Positions 3,063-32,726 of a stretch of DNA of 40,448 nt are shown here, piece after piece (within the stretch, counting starts at the first letter, position 1; every line of letters begins with the position of its first letter). Source of the stretch: an uncultured Erysipelotrichaceae bacterium (GTDB taxonomy: Bacteria > Bacillota_I > Bacilli_A > Erysipelotrichales > Erysipelotrichaceae). The position numbers were made by a program, and so were the translations under genes. A model generated the notes under the pieces. The model had not been told where the DNA came from and made no database searches. It saw nothing but the letters and a program-made list of their open reading frames with translations. The DNA is taken from the NCBI GenBank assembly GCA_944325935.1, contig CALVCF010000060.1, positions 1 through 40,448 on the forward strand, written 5' to 3'.

Positions 3063-4283
3063 ATGGTAATACGTAAAGCTTATTTAGAAAAACTTATCTC
3101 ATGGAAAGATCAGGACATCATCAAAGTCATTACCGGAATCAGGCGATGTGGAAAATCAACATTATTGAAACAGTTTCAAAATTATTTAAATACTAATGGA
3201 GTGACTAAGGAACAGATTATCTCAATCAATTTTGAAGATTTAGCATTTGAAGATCTATTAGATTACAGATCTTTATATCAATATGTAAAAAGCCATCTTC
3301 TGCCAGACCAAAAAATGTATGTTTTTTTAGACGAAATTCAAAAGGTTGCCAGTTTTGAAAAAGCAGTTGATAGTTTATATATCCAAAAAAATGTTGATAT
3401 TTATATCACTGGTTCAAATGCATATATGCTTTCTTCTGATTTATCTACTCTTTTATCAGGCCGTTATATTGAAATTTCGATGCTCCCTTTATCCTTTAAA
3501 GAAGTTTATGAAGAAAAGGGAGGAGATAAAGAAGAAACTTTTAGGCAATATCTAAAATACGGAGGTTTCCCTTATTTGAAAACTGTATCATTGGATGAGG
3601 AACAAATTAATACGTATTTAGAAGGTATTTATAATACAGTCATCATAAAAGATATAGAGGAAAGAGAAAACAGGAAAAATCAGGATCCAAACAAAAGAAG
3701 AATTACGGATATTGTCCTTTTAAAGTCGATCGCCAGGTATCTGGCAAGTACCATCGGCAGCATCGTCTCCGTCAAAAATGTGACTGGATACCTGACTTCA
3801 AGCGGCAGGAAAGTATCGCCATCGACCGTAGATGATTATATGGAAGCTTTGCATGAAGCATTTATCTTCTACCCCGTGGAGCGTTTTGATATATCAGGGA
3901 AAAAGGTTCTAAAAACATTGAATAAATGGTATATCGTCGACCTTGCGCTAAGAGACTACATGGTTCCCAAGAAAACATATGATCTAGGTTTTTCATTAGA
4001 AAATATCGTCTATTTCGAATTGATTCGCAGAGGATATCGCGTAAGTATAGGTAAATTAGGATCGGCAGAAGTTGATTTTGTTGCTCAAAAGAAGGGCGAG
4101 ATAATCTATTATCAGGTATCAGCAAGTATGATTGATCAGACAACATTTGAAAGAGAGTTAGCTCCATTGAGATCTATTAAAGACAACTATAAAAAAATAG
4201 TTTTGACGCTGGATAAATTTAGTCAAGGAAATTATGAGGGAATCGAAGTAGTTAATGTGATCGATTGGCTCTTAGAGGAATGA
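3063..4283 (+). CDS. AAA_14/DUF4143 ATP-binding protein, intact copy 1
   Basis: The protein has 406 residues, the usual size for this family. Walker A is GIRRCGKST (residues 25-33) and Walker B is VFLDEIQ (87-93). A sensor-like ITGSNAYML follows. A winged-helix-like middle (around VSPSTVDDYMEAL) leads to the C-terminal DUF4143 nuclease-fold region, with LENIVYFELIRRGY and AEVDFVAQKKGEIIYYQVS. The acidic D is present, but the usual ExK is Q-V-S, so nuclease activity is doubtful. The function of the family is not established; members are often in accessory DNA. This copy groups with the IRR-C-GKS subtype and differs clearly from the RQIGKT subtype at 4457 and 13410. It has its own promoter, ribosome site and operator-like palindromes and is transcribed alone. 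Confidence 0.9.
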   Translation: MVIRKAYLEKLISWKDQDIIKVITGIRRCGKSTLLKQFQNYLNTNGVTKEQIISINFEDLAFEDLLDYRSLYQYVKSHLLPDQKMYVFLDEIQKVASFEKAVDSLYIQKNVDIYITGSNAYMLSSDLSTLLSGRYIEISMLPLSFKEVYEEKGGDKEETFRQYLKYGGFPYLKTVSLDEEQINTYLEGIYNTVIIKDIEERENRKNQDPNKRRITDIVLLKSIARYLASTIGSIVSVKNVTGYLTSSGRKVSPSTVDDYMEALHEAFIFYPVERFDISGKKVLKTLNKWYIVDLALRDYMVPKKTYDLGFSLENIVYFELIRRGYRVSIGKLGSAEVDFVAQKKGEIIYYQVSASMIDQTTFERELAPLRSIKDNYKKIVLTLDKFSQGNYEGIEVVNVIDWLLEE

Positions 4284-4391
4284 GATGGCAAGTGATAAAG
4301 ATCATGTCAAATTATATTTATACCGCACCTTTCTATTCAAAAACAGTCTTGGATAATAAAAGTTAAGCTAAAAATATGTAATTAGTATTAA

Positions 4392-4444
4392 AAACTCCCC
4401 ATAAAAATCTGCATAGTTTTATTGAAACTCCCCATAAAAATCTG
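4392..4444 (+). promoter_or_regulatory. Two exact 20-bp direct repeats over a promoter
   Basis: AAACTCCCCATAAAAATCTG occurs at 4392-4411 and again, identical, at 4425-4444. Start-to-start spacing is 33 bp, close to three helical turns. The second copy directly abuts the -10 hexamer TAATAT (4445-4450), so a bound protein would cover the -35 region. This is a strong operator candidate for the ATPase gene at 4457. Confidence 0.7.
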
Positions 4445-4450
4445 TAATAT
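4445..4450 (+). promoter_or_regulatory. -10 element 6 nt before the ATG (leaderless start predicted)
   Basis: TAATAT is followed by six bases and then the ATG at 4457. Transcription normally starts about 7 nt after the -10 hexamer, which puts the first base of the mRNA on the start codon. No Shine-Dalgarno sequence is visible before the ATG, in agreement with a leaderless mRNA. Confidence 0.5.
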
Positions 4451-4456
4451 ATTTAT

Positions 4457-5803
4457 ATGGGAATACTATTTAAAAGAAAGATCGAAAATGAATTTATTCG
4501 CTGGAAAGAATCGCTAAAGATCAAGAAACGTGCCTTGGTTGTCAAAGGTCTAAGGCAGATTGGCAAGACGACATCGGTATTAGAATTTGCGCAAGCTAAT
4601 TACGAAAATGTTGTCTATATTAATTTTGTCGATCAAAAATCAGTCAAAGAAGTGTTTGACAATGACTTTGTTGTGGATAATTTGATTAGGGATCTATCAG
4701 CTATTCTGCCAGATAGTCGGTTTATTGAAAACAGGACTGTTATTATTTTTGATGAGATCCAAGAGTGCACTAATGCCAGATCTTCTATCAAAGCCTTCAT
4801 GTTGGATGGGCGCTTTGATATTATTGCTACCGGCTCCTTGCTAGGATTAAGAGGCTACAACAAGAAAGATTCAAGAGGTGTACCCGTAGGTTTTGAAACC
4901 ACGGTAAATATGTACCCTATGGATTTTGAAGAATATCTTTGGGCCAAAGGCATTGAGAACCGAACTATAGAATATCTTAAAGATTGTTTTAAAACTAAAC
5001 AGAAAGTATCTGAAATAGTAAATAAAACGATGCTTGGATATTTCAAAGAATATCTTTGTGTTGGTGGTATGCCGGATGCCGTAAATACTTTTTTAGCGAC
5101 ACATGATATGAATCAAGTACGCCAGGTTCAAAGGGACATACTAGAGAATTACCATGATTATTTTGGAAAGCATCTCAATAAAGACGAAAAAGATGTCAAA
5201 AATAAGACTGAGGCTATAAAAATAACGGAAGTTTATAATTCTATTCCCCGCCAATTAGCTAAAGAAAACAAAAAATTTATGTACAGAGAAATAAATGCGA
5301 AAGCAACCGCTAGAGAGTATCGAAACGCAATAACCTGGCTTGAGGAATTTGGCTTAATTGATCTTTGTTACAACCTGAATGTGATGGAAATGCCATTAGA
5401 AGGAAATAAAATAGATAATATTTTCAAAGTATATGTTGCGGATACCGGACTTTTTGTAGCAATGTTAGAAAAGGGAGCAGCTTATAATATTTTAAATGGT
5501 GATATGTTCGCCTATAAAGGAGCAATCTTTGAAAATGTGATCGCCGATGCCTTTTCTAAACTCGGTAAAAAACTATATTACTTTAGTAAGAATTTGGAAA
5601 TCGATTTTGTTACAATGTACGACCAAGAAGTTACAGCCATTGAAGTAAAGGCTACTAATGGCAATTCAAAGTCCCTCAGATCAATTCTTGGAAACTATGA
5701 GAAATATCATGTCAAAGGTAATTTTAAACTGATCGACGGGAATATTGGCAGTAAGAACGGCATTAATACCATCCCTCTTTACATGGCATTCTTAATAGAA
5801 TAA
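4457..5803 (+). CDS. AAA_14/DUF4143 ATP-binding protein, intact copy 2
   Basis: The 448-residue protein has Walker A GLRQIGKTT (31-39), Walker B IIFDEIQE (about 95-102), and the family signatures IATGSLLG, YPMDFEEYLWAKG and VGGMPDAVNTF. The C-terminal DUF4143 region has YVADTGLF, then LEIDFVTMYDQEVTAIEVKA, which keeps the D...ExK pattern of the restriction-endonuclease-like fold. It resembles the gene at 13410 and the pseudogene at 1719-2713 far more than its neighbour at 3063. The start was chosen because a -10 box lies 6 nt upstream. The biological role of the family is unknown; they are suspected mobile or defence-associated ATPases. Confidence 0.9.
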   Translation: MGILFKRKIENEFIRWKESLKIKKRALVVKGLRQIGKTTSVLEFAQANYENVVYINFVDQKSVKEVFDNDFVVDNLIRDLSAILPDSRFIENRTVIIFDEIQECTNARSSIKAFMLDGRFDIIATGSLLGLRGYNKKDSRGVPVGFETTVNMYPMDFEEYLWAKGIENRTIEYLKDCFKTKQKVSEIVNKTMLGYFKEYLCVGGMPDAVNTFLATHDMNQVRQVQRDILENYHDYFGKHLNKDEKDVKNKTEAIKITEVYNSIPRQLAKENKKFMYREINAKATAREYRNAITWLEEFGLIDLCYNLNVMEMPLEGNKIDNIFKVYVADTGLFVAMLEKGAAYNILNGDMFAYKGAIFENVIADAFSKLGKKLYYFSKNLEIDFVTMYDQEVTAIEVKATNGNSKSLRSILGNYEKYHVKGNFKLIDGNIGSKNGINTIPLYMAFLIE

Positions 5804-27163: not shown

Positions 27164-28495
27164 ATGGATATGCTGTTAAACTTAAACTGGAGTGCGATCT
27201 TTGAGACCTTCTTAGCTGATTTTTCGGTGGCTTTGATCATGGCGATCGTCGGCGCTTTATTTTTAAATCGTTATGTATCAAAGCTCAACTTTTCAAGGCG
27301 TTTGAATGAGCTCGGTTTTGATAATGCCAGTGTCCGCAACCAAACAAGAGCCGAAATCAATGAAATGTTTTCAGAGGCCAATATGATCAAGATGATCTTT
27401 GTTTCGGGCACTCATTTTTTAAAAGAGAACGAGAATAATATCAAAGGGGCCTTAAAAAGAGGGGCTAGAGTACAGGTGCTCATAGCTAGACCGACCAGTG
27501 AATTCATCAAGGATATCGAACATATGGAAAATGATCACATGGTCAATGGTGCCAGGTTAAGAAAAAAGGATGATCATATTGATGCGGAGATCTTAGAAGT
27601 AATCGATCTATTCAAGGATTCTAAGCTTGAACTGCGCTTTTATGATACAGAATACCGCTTGCCCTTTAAACTGGCCTATTATCCAAACGGTATGGTCAAA
27701 GCCTGGCTTACGATGTCGCTTCCGCCGTATAAATCGACCCAGTCCTTCGTTTTAAGGGGCAAAAGAGCGAGCATCATTGAAGTAGAGGGCTTGCACTTTG
27801 TCGAGATGATGGAAACACATTTCGATTCGGTCTTTGCCCACGCCCTTGAAGTCGAAGATGTTTTAAATGAGTATTATGCCTATACTAACTACAAAAAGAA
27901 AGAAGCCAAAGCTTTTGAAAACATGCTTAAAGCTAAAGACAACAATGGTATTTTGATCGAAGTTGCTGCCCAACACCCCTTGATCGAGGGAAGATTTCCC
28001 AATGAAGAATTTAAAAGGCGCTTAGATAGAGCCTTTGATCTGTATCAGAAGTTATGCGGGCAAAATGAAGATGTCAAGATCTATGTGCCAGGCGATGTCC
28101 ATTATGACGACAAGATCTCTTTGTCCTTGGCTGGTGTCAATTACCTTAAAGAAAAGGGAATTGCCACAAGAGACCTCTATGGTCAAGAAAAGAACGATGA
28201 GTATAGCGAAGATGGCGTCTATAATTCAAGCGATGAGTGTTATGTAGCTGCGAAGATCTTTTTTGATGAAAAGATGAAAGAGCTCTACTGCGTCTGTTCG
28301 CCAGCTCAATTAGAGCGGAAAGCATTAAGCTATATTCGCTTTGCCTGTTTGCCGCATTTCATTGCCGTCGATGTCGATGATATGTACCACAGTTATGTCG
28401 ATGAAGCCTTTTTCAAGATCCCGACTATGCTAAATGAAAGAAGCTTTCGCCAGGAAATGGATAAAACACATACTGAGCGCAATCAAACAACGTAA
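27164..28495 (+). CDS. Membrane-anchored protein with PLD-like and DUF218-like regions
   Basis: The 443-residue protein has one N-terminal membrane helix (about 18-40, SVALIMAIVGALFLNRYV). A region at about 60-240 looks like a phospholipase-D fold without the HxK motif: FVSGTHFLKEN, VQVLIARPT and a late HFVEMMETHFD. The C-terminal part (about 255-420) resembles DUF218/YdcF-type domains (VKIYVPGDVHYDDKISLSLA, then GVNYLKEKGI). I do not recognise a characterised homologue. It is transcribed from its own extended -10 promoter, with AGGTGTG as ribosome site. It probably faces the cytoplasm, close to the membrane. Confidence 0.6.
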   Translation: MDMLLNLNWSAIFETFLADFSVALIMAIVGALFLNRYVSKLNFSRRLNELGFDNASVRNQTRAEINEMFSEANMIKMIFVSGTHFLKENENNIKGALKRGARVQVLIARPTSEFIKDIEHMENDHMVNGARLRKKDDHIDAEILEVIDLFKDSKLELRFYDTEYRLPFKLAYYPNGMVKAWLTMSLPPYKSTQSFVLRGKRASIIEVEGLHFVEMMETHFDSVFAHALEVEDVLNEYYAYTNYKKKEAKAFENMLKAKDNNGILIEVAAQHPLIEGRFPNEEFKRRLDRAFDLYQKLCGQNEDVKIYVPGDVHYDDKISLSLAGVNYLKEKGIATRDLYGQEKNDEYSEDGVYNSSDECYVAAKIFFDEKMKELYCVCSPAQLERKALSYIRFACLPHFIAVDVDDMYHSYVDEAFFKIPTMLNERSFRQEMDKTHTERNQTT

Positions 28496-28527: not shown

Positions 28528-29139
28528 ATGGAAACAAAACTATTAAGAAAATATGAGCAAGATCTGATCGTGGAGGCTTTTAAAGAAGGCCTTATTGTCG
28601 CTATGCCGACTGATACGGTCTTTGGCCTGGCTTGCATCTATCATGATTTAGCAGCTAAGGAGCGCATCAAAGAGATCAAGGGGCGTGAGAAGGTCAAATC
28701 ACTGCCGATGATGGTCAATGGCCTTATGATGGCTAAAGAATATTGTGTGATCGATGATCGCTGTGCCAAACTGATGAGCGCCTTTTCTCCTGGCGCAATC
28801 ACCTATATTTTAAAAAGGAAGCATGATCTTGACCCCAGAATCACGGATGGTAAGGATACGGTAGCTTTAAGGATACCTGCTGATGATCTGATCCTAGATG
28901 TCATCACCAAGCTTGATTGCCCGATCTTGATGACCAGCGCCAACTTATCGCATCACGATAATCTGAGTGAATACCGCGATGTCTATGCCTTATTTAAGGA
29001 TAAGGTCGATGTCTTGGTGATGGAGAATGCCAAAAGTTTAGTGGCTTCGACTATTGTTGATGTAAGTGAAGGTGATCTTAAGATCATCAGAAGCGGGATG
29101 ATAAGCGAAAAGGAGCTAAGAGATGTCTATGCGGGATGA
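28528..29139 (+). CDS. L-threonylcarbamoyladenylate synthase (Sua5/YrdC/TsaC family)
   Basis: The 203-residue protein is the size of single-domain YrdC/Tsa[10 protein letters not shown] (26-34) is the signature, with [13 protein letters not shown] and MTSANLS further on. The enzyme makes threonylcarbamoyl-AMP from Thr, bicarbonate and ATP, the first step of the t6A37 tRNA modification. It overlaps glyA by 17 bp, so they are co-transcribed. Short for Sua5 (which has a second domain), so the TsaC/YrdC branch is more likely. Confidence 0.9.
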
Positions 29140-30352
29140 AAGATTATTTAAGATCATTGATAAGGAATATCAAAGACAAAACGATAATATCGAACTTATC
29201 GCTTCAGAAAATTATGTCTCAAAGGCTGTGCTAGAGGCAGCTGGTTCGATTTTGACCAATAAATATGCCGAAGGATATCCTAATGCCAGATATTATGGCG
29301 GCTGCGTCTATGTCGATGAAGTGGAGGAGCTGGCCCGCACCTATCTCAAGGAGCTTTTTAAAGCTGAACACGTCAACGTTCAACCCCACAGTGGCTCGCA
29401 AGCCAACATGGCTGTCTATAATGCCTTATTAAAACCGGGCGACAGGATCTTGGGGATGGATCTAAAAAGCGGCGGTCATCTAACGCATGGCTATAAGCTC
29501 AATTTTTCCGGTGCGATCTATGAAGCTTATACTTATGGAGTAAGCGCGGAAAGTGAAAGTCTTGACTACGAGGAAATCTTAAGGATCGCCAAAGAAGTTA
29601 AACCAAAGCTCATTGTCGCCGGAGCCAGCGCCTATGCCTTAGAGATCGATTTTAGGGAATTTAGAAAGATCGCTGATGAGGTCGACGCTTATTTGATGGT
29701 CGATATGGCCCATATCGCCGGACTTGTCGCTACCGGATATCATATGTCGCCGCTTCCCTATGCCGATGTTGTGACATCGACGACCCACAAGACCTTAAGA
29801 GGTCCCAGGGGTGGGATCATCCTTTGCAGGGAAAAATACGCCAAAGCGATCGATAAAGCCTTATTCCCCGGCATTCAAGGCGGCCCCTTAGAACATATCA
29901 TTGCCGCCAAAGCAGAGTGCTTCTTTGAGGCCTTAGATCCAAGCTTTAAAGAATATATCGGCCATGTAGTGAAAAACGCCAAAGTTTTGGCAAGGGAGCT
30001 AGAAAATGGGGGAGTAAGGATCGTTTCCGGGCGAACTGATAATCACCTGGTCTTAGTCGATGTCTCGCCTTTAGGCCTAACTGGCAAAGAAGTAGAAAGC
30101 GTCTTGGACAGGGTCCATATCACCGTCAACAAGAACGCGATCCCCTATGATCCCTTAAAAGCCAATATAACAAGCGGCATCAGAGTGGGGACGGCAGCTA
30201 TGACCACCAGAGGTTTTAGGGAAGAAGAATTCTCTAAAGTGGCAAAGCTCATCTTAGCTACCTTAAAGAACATTCATGATGAAGCTAAGCTAAGTGAGAT
30301 CGCCGATGAAGTATTGACCCTGACCCATGCCTTTCCCTATAAGCCTTTTTAG
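29123..30352 (+). CDS. glyA: Serine hydroxymethyltransferase
   Basis: The 409-residue protein interconverts serine and glycine using tetrahydrofolate and PLP, feeding one-carbon metabolism. The PLP Lys is K223 in [15 protein letters not shown]-terminal [20 protein letters not shown] and VDMAHIAGL are typical. The length fits bacterial GlyA (about 410). The start lies inside the end of the upstream gene; AGGAGC is available as ribosome site. Confidence 0.97.
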
Positions 30353-30364
30353 AAAGAGATAGAT

Positions 30365-31993
30365 ATGAAGAAAGAAAATCCTGTTTATGTTATTGGACAC
30401 AAAAATCCTGACACTGATTCCATCGTTTCAGCTATTGCCTATGCGCATTTAAAAAATGAACTCGGCATTAAAGCGATCGCTGGACGTTTAGGCGGTGTGA
30501 GCTCCGAGACTGAATATCTTTTAAAACGCTTTGGCTTTGACGAACCCTTAAATATCTTCACTGCCAAAAGTATCATCAAGGAAATCGATATTGACGATGC
30601 CTATTTGATCTCTCCGGAATCTACGATCAAAGAAGCCTTGGATCTGATCGCCCTTGGCAATAATCGCTCGATCTTTATTGCCAACAAGGATAAGACGCTG
30701 GAAGGGGTTATCGCTACCGATGATTTCACCAAGATCTTTACTTCTTGTGATGATGATCTCATGAAGATGCTCAAGGTGGCGGAGTTTGATGATATCGTCA
30801 AAGTCCTGGAGGCGGAAGTCATCCATAGGGAAGATCATTTATTAAGCGATGGGATCGTCGATTTCTTCCCGACTTTTGCGACCAAGATCCACCCTCATTC
30901 GATTGTCGTCACTAACAATTCTCCAGAGATCCAAAGATATTGTCTCAATGAAAAAATAGCGCTTTTAGTGATCGTTGGGGAAAGCTGGATCGATGATGTG
31001 ACGTTAAAGAAAGCCAAAGAGATGCATGTCAGCGTTATTGCCACGAGGCTTTCGCCTTTAAGTGTCTCGCGCCTCATCTATCAAGTCGCCAAGATCACCA
31101 AGATCATGACCCCTAAAGAGAAGGTCATCTCTTTTTCGACGCGCGATACCGTTGATGAGGCTGGTTATAAGATGACTAAATCGCGTTATCATGCCTACCC
31201 CGTCTTAAATCATCACGGTCAGATCGTCGGTTCGATCGGGCGTTACCATGTTTTAAATTCGAAAAAGAAACAGTTTATCTTAGTTGATCATAACGAACTG
31301 GGTCAAAGCTTAAGCGATCTTGATCCTTCGGAGATCATCGAGATCGTCGATCATCATCGTTTTGGCGGCCTTGAAACTAATAATCCCGTTATGATCACCA
31401 CGATGGTCGTGGGTGCCACAGCGACCATCGTTGCCTATAAGTATTTTGAAAACGAGGTCAAGATCGATCAGAATATGGCCGGTCTTTTATTGGGCGGAAT
31501 CATTGCCGATACGCTCAATTTCAAGTCGCCGACAACAACTAATATCGATATCGAGATGGCTAAGCGCTTAGAAAAGATGGCAAAAGTATCGATGGAAGAG
31601 ATCTCAAAGGGCCTTATTAATGCCAGTGAGTCGATCTTGAATAAGCGCAATATCGAGATCGTCTATAATGATTTCAAAGAATTCGAGATCCATAACTTGC
31701 GCATTGGTCTTGCCCAGACTCAGATCAAAAACAAGGATGAATTCTACAAGGTCAAGGATAAGATGAGCAACTATCTCGATGAAGTATGCGCCATGCAGAA
31801 GTATGATCTTTTAGGTGTCATGTTTACCATGCAAAGCGGTTCAGGATCTTATTTCTTAGAAGCAGGCGAGCATAAAGGAGTGATCGCAAAGGCCTTTAGC
31901 GAGATCATGAAAGAAGACAATTATGCCCCGGAAGTCGTTTCGCGTAAAAAACAGGTCCTACCGGCGATCATTGCTTACTTTGAGAAAAACTGA
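30365..31993 (+). CDS. ppaC: Manganese-dependent (family II) inorganic pyrophosphatase with CBS and DRTGG domains
   Basis: The 542-residue protein is longer than the simple enzyme (about 310) because a regulatory insert with two CBS regions and a DRTGG-like domain lies between about 70 and 300. The DHH catalytic core begins GHKNPDTDS (11-19, metal ligands H12, D16, D18) and resumes after the insert with VDHNELGQS and VDHHRFGG. The DHHA2 half ends near SRKKQVLPAI. Such CBS-PPases hydrolyse pyrophosphate and are regulated by adenine nucleotides. The gene lies 12 bp after glyA and overlaps the next gene by one base. Confidence 0.95.
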   Translation: MKKENPVYVIGHKNPDTDSIVSAIAYAHLKNELGIKAIAGRLGGVSSETEYLLKRFGFDEPLNIFTAKSIIKEIDIDDAYLISPESTIKEALDLIALGNNRSIFIANKDKTLEGVIATDDFTKIFTSCDDDLMKMLKVAEFDDIVKVLEAEVIHREDHLLSDGIVDFFPTFATKIHPHSIVVTNNSPEIQRYCLNEKIALLVIVGESWIDDVTLKKAKEMHVSVIATRLSPLSVSRLIYQVAKITKIMTPKEKVISFSTRDTVDEAGYKMTKSRYHAYPVLNHHGQIVGSIGRYHVLNSKKKQFILVDHNELGQSLSDLDPSEIIEIVDHHRFGGLETNNPVMITTMVVGATATIVAYKYFENEVKIDQNMAGLLLGGIIADTLNFKSPTTTNIDIEMAKRLEKMAKVSMEEISKGLINASESILNKRNIEIVYNDFKEFEIHNLRIGLAQTQIKNKDEFYKVKDKMSNYLDEVCAMQKYDLLGVMFTMQSGSGSYFLEAGEHKGVIAKAFSEIMKEDNYAPEVVSRKKQVLPAIIAYFEKN

Positions 31994-32529
31994 TGAAATA
32001 TTTATTTAAGAATGCTGATATTGTGATCGATCAAAGGCGCCTTTTACATCGAGGTTCGCTTTTGATCGAAGACGATAAGATCCTTGATCACTTCTATGAT
32101 GGAAGAGAAGTGCTTGGCGCAAGATGTTTTGATCTTCATGGAAGTATCATTATGCCCTTACCTTTAAGCTCTAAAGATCCAGCTTATGTGCTTCATGATA
32201 GCTCGATCTTGGATGATGAACTTTTGGGAATGTTATTAAATGACAAAGCGATCTTTTTAAGAAAAGAACATATAAAAAAAGATCTATTGGAATTATTGCT
32301 GCGTTTAAAAGACTATCGAAAGCTCATCTATCTTGAAGAAGATTTGAGCCCCTTTATAGGCATGGAAGATATTATGTCGCCCCTCATCTTGGCCTCCATG
32401 ACCTCTTTGAATGCTCATAAGAAAAATGGTCTATATCGGGGCAGGATAGCGAGTTTTATTCTACTAGAAAAGAATTATCGACCTTTTGGTAAAGTTGTTA
32501 AAGGCCGCTTTGAAAGGATACTGTTATGA
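31993..32529 (+). CDS. Amidohydrolase-like protein without catalytic barrel, 178 aa
   Basis: The N-terminus reads MKYLFKNADIVIDQRRLLHR, then GSLLIEDDKILDHF and FDLHGSIIMP. This matches the beta-sandwich start of amidohydrolases such as N-acetylglucosamine-6-phosphate deacetylase. The C-terminus (MTSLNAHKKNGL, then GRIASFILLEKNY and KVVKGRF) matches the other half of the same sandwich. The barrel between them, about 250 residues in the family, is reduced to about 80 and has no HxH or other metal ligands. It is probably not an enzyme. It is translationally coupled to ppaC (1-bp overlap) and to the DUF1146 gene (4-bp overlap). Confidence 0.5.
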   Translation: MKYLFKNADIVIDQRRLLHRGSLLIEDDKILDHFYDGREVLGARCFDLHGSIIMPLPLSSKDPAYVLHDSSILDDELLGMLLNDKAIFLRKEHIKKDLLELLLRLKDYRKLIYLEEDLSPFIGMEDIMSPLILASMTSLNAHKKNGLYRGRIASFILLEKNYRPFGKVVKGRFERILL

Positions 32530-32726
32530 TGATATATGTGCGCGATCTCTTGATCTATTTTGTCTTTTTTGCCTTATCTTTGTATGCTTTAAGTGCAATT
32601 GATTTTGCCCGTTTTATGAAAAGGGGAAGGGTCAAGGAGATCCAGATCCTCTATATCTTACTATCAATGGCGCTAGCTTTTCTTGCCGGCAGTTTCCTGA
32701 TCGGTATCATCAGCAGGGGCTTTTAA
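32526..32726 (+). CDS. DUF1146 (YwzB-type) small membrane protein
   Basis: The 66-residue protein has two hydrophobic helices, LLIYFVFFALSLYALSAI and LLSMALAFLAGSFLIGII, around a basic loop FARFMKRGRVKEIQIL. This matches the DUF1146 family of Firmicutes, often found near ATP synthase or cell-wall genes. Function is unknown. It overlaps the previous gene by 4 bp and ends the operon that begins with the YrdC gene. Confidence 0.8.
   Translation: MMIYVRDLLIYFVFFALSLYALSAIDFARFMKRGRVKEIQILYILLSMALAFLAGSFLIGIISRGF

Follow-up and report, generated by a model that had tools for sequence, protein, structure and literature searches.

What is left of an enzyme once its catalytic core has been stripped away, and why would selection hold on to the remnant? 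This question is raised by a gene for a 178-residue protein within the window, the whole stretch of 40,448 nucleotides that we analyzed from an uncultured Erysipelotrichaceae bacterium. A preliminary description of this gene had read its product as a NagA-like amidohydrolase pared down to its composite beta-sandwich. Our comparisons confirm its descent from NagA (GlcNAc-6-phosphate deacetylase) and a predicted loss of catalysis, and to that first reading they add a graded series of reduction in relatives, the retention of the last barrel unit, selection measured in relatives, constraint that has shifted within the protein, and evidence that speaks against either of two obvious partners in general.

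Descent and anatomy of the reduced protein

The gene stands in the order sua5-glyA-ppaC-pseudo-NagA-DUF1146 (Table 1), followed by an ABC-2 permease and an ABC ATPase and, further 3', by a cytidylyltransferase-like protein and two proteins with CDP-glycerol glycerophosphotransferase domains; the whole is probably a teichoic acid cluster. In G001, a genome of the same genus, the ortholog occupies the same place and encodes 180 residues, with 57% identity over 175 aligned codons. Adjoining sua5, positions 27164 to 28495 (+) encode a 443-residue protein that has a hydrophobic N terminus and matches no Pfam model at E ≤ 1e-4; in its place G001 has a 445-residue open reading frame (ORF). A second PpaC-like gene of the window genome (G000), on contig C56 (4643 to 6199), is 31% identical over residues 7 to 535.

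Table 1. Genes of the window around the reduced NagA, and segments of its product
Feature	Coordinates	Strand	Remarks
Barrel-eroded pseudo-NagA gene	31993..32529	+	ORF, 178 aa, ATG start
ppaC, pyrophosphatase with DHH, CBS, DRTGG, and DHHA2 domains	30365..31993	+	Pfam/NCBIfam
DUF1146 gene	32526..32726	+	Constant downstream neighbor in relatives examined
sua5/yrdC-type gene, same cluster	28528..29139	+	
glyA, same cluster	29123..30352	+	
N-terminal half of composite beta-sandwich, residues 1-55	31993..32157	+	56/60 reference positions retained
Linker, remnant of barrel units 1-6, residues 56-82	32158..32238	+	Alignment
Segment matching last barrel strand-helix-strand, residues 83-116	32239..32340	+	Catalytic Asp position is Glu
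Last barrel helix and C-terminal sandwich half, residues 122-174	32356..32514	+	N140 and G150 invariant in 16 reduced forms

Pfam and NCBIfam models, the curated NagA model included, returned no match to the window protein at E ≤ 10. Compared by hhalign with 26 full-length proteins encoded at the same position in relatives, the four shortest proteins of the window's genus (g1) gave a probability of 99.3 (E = 9e-21), the five longer proteins of g1 99.9 (6e-33), the g19 forms 99.4 (3e-21), and the g52 forms 99.6 (9e-25); control alignments of PpaC, GlyA, and Sua5 gave E values of 0.011 to 0.62 (0.14 to 0.24 for the four shortest g1 proteins) and probabilities of at most 3.9. A search of the PDB with a profile of 16 reduced forms placed NagA first (2vhl, 4.5e-12), amidohydrolase-superfamily entries making up nearly all of the 60 matches listed, and the full-length copy of G010 matches solved NagA structures (best 3egj, 2.2e-42). 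The Pfam model Amidohydro_1 recognizes the G177 form above its cutoff and the G002 and G149 forms below it; the forms of G001, G026, G157, and G247 have no Pfam match. Besides this homology, the window gene shares its position with the full-length NagA of a sister genus, and the NagA-like origin first proposed stands.

Both halves of the sandwich are recognizable, as had been claimed (Table 1), and the window protein retains none of the six metal ligands of NagA (HxH, E, H, H, D), so that the catalytic motif is indeed gone; the complete eightfold barrel with its lid, which an active NagA would show along with the ligands and a match to the NagA model, is absent as well. The barrel, put at about 80 residues in the preliminary description, amounts to about 90 residues between the two halves. 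Within the last strand-helix-strand, 35 of 42 aligned positions survive, against 26 of 171 in the barrel before it; 6 of 38 are left in the lid. Measured on G173 as a ruler, the dead forms keep 51 to 60 of 60 positions in the N-terminal sandwich half, 31 to 41 of 42 in the last strand-helix-strand, and 53 to 68 of 68 in helix 8 and the C-terminal sandwich half, with 25 to 140 of 171 left in the first six barrel units and 0 to 6 of 38 in the lid. The last strand-helix-strand (segment 232-273) was so named from the places that the cited account gives for the catalytic Asp and the lid (PMC6016474). The first reading is thus to be amended, for besides the sandwich the dead forms keep this last unit and helix 8. 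Nine positions are invariant or nearly invariant among the 16 reduced forms, all of them D, G, P, I, or N, and nothing among them looks like a newly conserved catalytic cluster.

Structure prediction, which had been suggested as a check, bore out an amidohydrolase-like N-terminal part and gave no confident full model. AlphaFold reached a mean pLDDT of 34 for the window protein alone and of 48 with three NagA rows (ten-residue blocks at 51 to 77 over residues 1 to 60 and 24 to 59 beyond), with five strands at residues 2-13, 16-26, 29-34, 43-47, and 52-55; the NagA-row alignment is wrong in its C-terminal part, and this model is informative for the N-terminal portion only. Foldseek returned 311 matches to that portion at E ≤ 10, two of them at E ≤ 0.001 (best 2.3e-4). 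The best 50 of the 311 are amidohydrolase-superfamily or unnamed entries over 53 to 61 columns, NagA 3iv8 and 3egj among them, a likeness that is not independent because the rows fed to AlphaFold were NagAs.

Loss of the core at one gene position

To follow the gene through its relatives, 74 stretches (L023 to L096) were taken from a sample of genomes with DUF1146, L095 being another NagA locus without it. DUF1146 is present in 252 of the 272 genomes of the family, only some of which showed a NagA or pseudo-NagA neighbor. Just 5' of DUF1146, 26 of the genomes examined have a full-length NagA of 373 to 386 residues and 19 have a shorter form. Genus g3 mostly has the full-length enzyme there; two g3 genomes with full-length matches, G164 and G166, fall outside the count of 26. 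Lid and six ligands are complete in all 25 full-length rows aligned, the 26th genome, G169, with an open frame at this position, standing outside the alignment. The 331-residue form of G179 keeps the six ligands and has no lid. Dead forms, which span 308 to 178 residues, occur in 18 genomes (19 rows), namely all nine of the window's genus, two of g52, four of g19, and G157, G161, and G177 of g3; each row has at most two of the six ligands, and the HxH pair is found in none. G175, partial and split over two contig ends, was set aside from these counts.

A reduced-form profile found no further reduced forms in the 272 genomes of the family, nor in 315 genomes of the order that include them, where the list of matches is complete at E ≤ 1e-12 and the others on it are full-length frames except the split G175. 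Among 80 loci listed from a scan with the PpaC alignment, only L097 to L099 carry the gene at E ≤ 1e-3, all full length. In this group of gut bacteria the catalytic core has been lost in steps at one fixed gene position. In G157, whose copy beside DUF1146 is a dead protein of 186 residues, a full-length relative of the g3 NagA lies on contig C35 (L182:978-2111), the two copies being placed as after a duplication.

A tree of 44 genomes built from PpaC, Sua5, and DUF1146 groups G179 with the full-length G010 and G188 (support 100); it gives poor support for where G157 and G177 stand. One clade with a single, shared loss of catalysis may account for the dead forms, a topology that an AU test does not reject (p = 0.615; 16 of the 18 genomes were included, as G007 and G161 had too little sequence). 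Several independent losses of catalytic activity are therefore not claimed, and a clade that also includes G179 is rejected (AU p = 1e-5). Because G179 falls outside the dead clade, the lid was probably lost at least twice, and because G179 keeps six ligands without it, the lid may have been the first part to go.

Forms of 178 to 220 residues sit in three places of the tree: in G000, G001, and G004, beside longer g1 forms (support 100); in G026, beside 308-residue sisters (support 100); and in G157. Since lost barrel segments cannot return, these are separate shrinkages, and the three groups retain the same segments. We tentatively propose, at a little under an even chance, that the NagA sandwich (domain II) is itself the working module and that, once catalysis became dispensable, the enzyme was trimmed to the same core, in a protein of 178 to 220 residues, in at least three separate lineages (the window genus, G026, and G157).

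Selection on the remnant

Of the two outcomes named at the outset as refuting the first reading, a predicted fold unrelated to amidohydrolases did not appear in the part that could be modeled, and decay in sister species was not seen either: the frame is open in all nine same-genus genomes. Pairwise dN/dS (Nei-Gojobori, bootstrap ranges in parentheses) is 0.13 (0.07 to 0.23) for the dead pair G247-G249, 0.14 (0.08 to 0.22) for G003-G008, 0.13 (0.07 to 0.22) for two contigs of G161, and 0.21 (0.11 to 0.39) for two contigs of G177, with binomial p values from 2e-5 to 2e-19; the last two pairs each come from within one draft genome and may reflect strain variants or contamination. Dead pairs at greater distance gave 0.17 to 0.32 where computable. 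Full-length NagA gave 0.06 to 0.10 in five pairs and 0.28 in the more distant G010-G188. Constraint on the dead forms is therefore weaker than on the full-length enzyme but clear, neither a disabled frame nor a dN/dS near 1, the marks of a pseudogene, was found, and decay is unlikely.

In the window's own lineage the route is indirect. Between G000 and G001, dS is saturated in glyA (2.18) and ppaC (2.25) and not computable for pseudo-NagA, whose dN is 0.41. Among 500 neutral simulations at one substitution per site none remained free of stops, and the median identity was 0.18 against the 0.57 seen, which argues against neutrality of the window gene. The early claim that the gene is kept by selection, and with it the maintenance expected of a pseudoenzyme, is thus borne out by measurement in four pairs of relatives, and for the window's lineage we infer it.

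The distribution of this constraint differs between the two kinds of protein. The sandwich of full-length proteins mostly changes more quickly than their middle (median ratio 1.27, with the sandwich the slower part in 84 of 300 pairs), whereas in reduced proteins it is slower in 21 of 21 pairs (10 + 6 + 3 + 1 + 1), counts that serve as a description and not a test because the pairs share species. The four shortest g1 proteins have p-distances of 0.72 in the C-terminal half, 0.73 in the middle, and 0.57 in the N-terminal half, and in G003-G008 the C-terminal 62 residues are by dN no slower than the middle. Constraint has moved from the barrel to the sandwich, chiefly to its N-terminal half.

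Function and candidate partners

We infer, with the preliminary description, a function other than catalysis. Stripped of its lid, its ligands, and most of its barrel, and selected for its sandwich, last strand-helix-strand, and helix 8, the pseudo-NagA is most likely a noncatalytic binding or scaffold protein, a reading that we hold with moderate confidence. The lid would have been lost first; the metal ligands and most of the barrel would then have gone, leaving under selection a remnant that presumably folds as a sandwich-centered domain and would act by binding another protein. As to that putative partner, elimination favors the small DUF1146 protein because it is the constant neighbor, and naming it is a guess that we rate as rather doubtful. 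All 46 rows have the gene directly 5' of DUF1146, which is partly so by construction, the gene having been located via DUF1146; two profile searches independent of DUF1146 recovered the same reduced loci and, in addition, another G161 contig, whose end lies immediately beyond the gene.

Any attachment to ppaC is looser. The preliminary description had the gene intact and coupled to both neighbors, and in the window it shares one base with ppaC (TGATG) and four with DUF1146 (ATGA), but the tie to ppaC is not general among dead forms (G157, G161, and g19 depart from it). In G250, moreover, ppaC and DUF1146 are immediate neighbors with nothing separating them (L061, oriented 3840-5662), so neither neighbor requires the gene in general. 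It is improbable that the dead protein serves PpaC as a subunit for regulation or assembly, in the manner of pseudo-dihydroorotase (pDHO) and aspartate transcarbamoylase, a precedent described in the cited account (PMC7053772). The gene does adjoin ppaC in 32 of the 46 rows, among them the window (from a 14-base overlap to an 18-base gap), yet the dead forms of G157, G161, and the four g19 genomes occur where no PpaC of the window type is present, as judged by identity in drafts; the best PpaC there is 30 to 33% identical, a type also present in the window genome on another contig. The g19 cluster does have a PpaC of this second type upstream, so the case is weakened without being lost.

That the frame is decaying and is kept open only for translational coupling to DUF1146, eroding by in-frame deletion, strikes us as quite improbable. 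It would agree with an overlap or gap of at most 4 bases to DUF1146 in 46 of 46 rows (long overlaps being upper bounds, from most upstream starts), with frames that remain open through large losses, and with a pseudo-NagA that changes faster than its neighbors (57% identity between G000 and G001 against 88% for PpaC); it is contradicted by the amino acid constraint in the four pairs (dN/dS of 0.13 to 0.21, p ≤ 2e-5), by the neutral simulations, and by the direct joining of ppaC and DUF1146 in G250. Purifying selection on the dead forms would suit a newly acquired catalytic or ligand-binding activity, which we think very improbable, the conserved D, G, P, I, and N positions being mostly typical of turns and packing.

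Active NagA is an unlikely partner in general, as the g19 genomes indicate. The window genome carries two other full-length NagAs (the stop in the second lies 5' of the start codon, and its ORF is intact), and other NagAs accompany a full-length copy beside DUF1146 in G167, G170, G173, and G189; in G010 and G188 the copy beside DUF1146 is the genome's only match to the NagA model. No match to the NagA model exceeds the cutoff in five genomes with dead forms, G149 and the four of g19 (drafts, 82 to 100% complete). Redundancy may have permitted the loss of catalysis, and it neither strictly predicts that loss nor explains retention. That the dead protein pairs as a hetero-oligomer subunit with an active NagA encoded elsewhere, as the window genome's other NagAs and the dimeric state of NagA (PMC6016474) might suggest, is highly improbable given these five genomes, the purifying selection that g19 dead forms are nonetheless under, and a dimer interface that the same account places in the barrel, the part lost.

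The favored reading, a noncatalytic binding or scaffold protein, can be set beside known systems. The window protein is like NagA (PDB 2vhl, 3egj, 1o12) in direct descent, in a gene position shared with the sister genus, and in its composite sandwich, and unlike it in lacking metal ligands, lid, and most of the first six barrel units. The dihydropyrimidinase-related proteins (CRMP/DPYSL) are amidohydrolase relatives matched both by profile and by fold, and they are not known to act as enzymes; unlike the window protein, they are eukaryotic and retain the full barrel. The cited account places pDHO in class A2 aspartate transcarbamoylases of Pseudomonas and in a fungal multifunctional protein; it too is an inactive amidohydrolase relative, necessary for transcarbamoylase activity in P. 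aeruginosa and without zinc ligands in the fungal domain, but that domain is described as having the size of an active DHOase and closely resembling it in fold, and in Pseudomonas the chain has a mass of 45 kDa (PMC7053772), whereas the barrel of the window protein is mostly gone. These named amidohydrolase pseudoenzymes retain the whole fold; here, many stages from enzyme to module survive at one position, with the remnant still under selection. One study describes the role of the NagA sandwich domain as unclear and reports that an attempt at its removal yielded no soluble protein (PMC6016474); natural barrel-poor forms allow this domain to be examined almost alone. Among the open-license papers listed in literature searches, none concerned a reduced or pseudo NagA, and DUF1146 is mentioned in two, once in each.

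Two further peculiarities were seen at these loci. In four of the nine same-genus genomes a DeoC-like gene (L024:4210-4863, +, with matching genes in G003, G006, and G008) lies between ppaC and the dead NagA. Its ORFs of 210 to 256 residues have lost the lysine of the KTSTG motif, which we take to be the catalytic motif of DeoC, and its dN/dS is 0.14 in G003-G008 and 0.27 for G002 with G003 or G008, so that two dead TIM-barrel enzymes stand side by side in one operon. Just upstream of the 308-residue dead NagA of G247, G249, and G248 (L089, L090, and L049), a single open frame encodes a Sua5-GlyA fusion of 613 residues, or 704 in G248 with the most upstream start.
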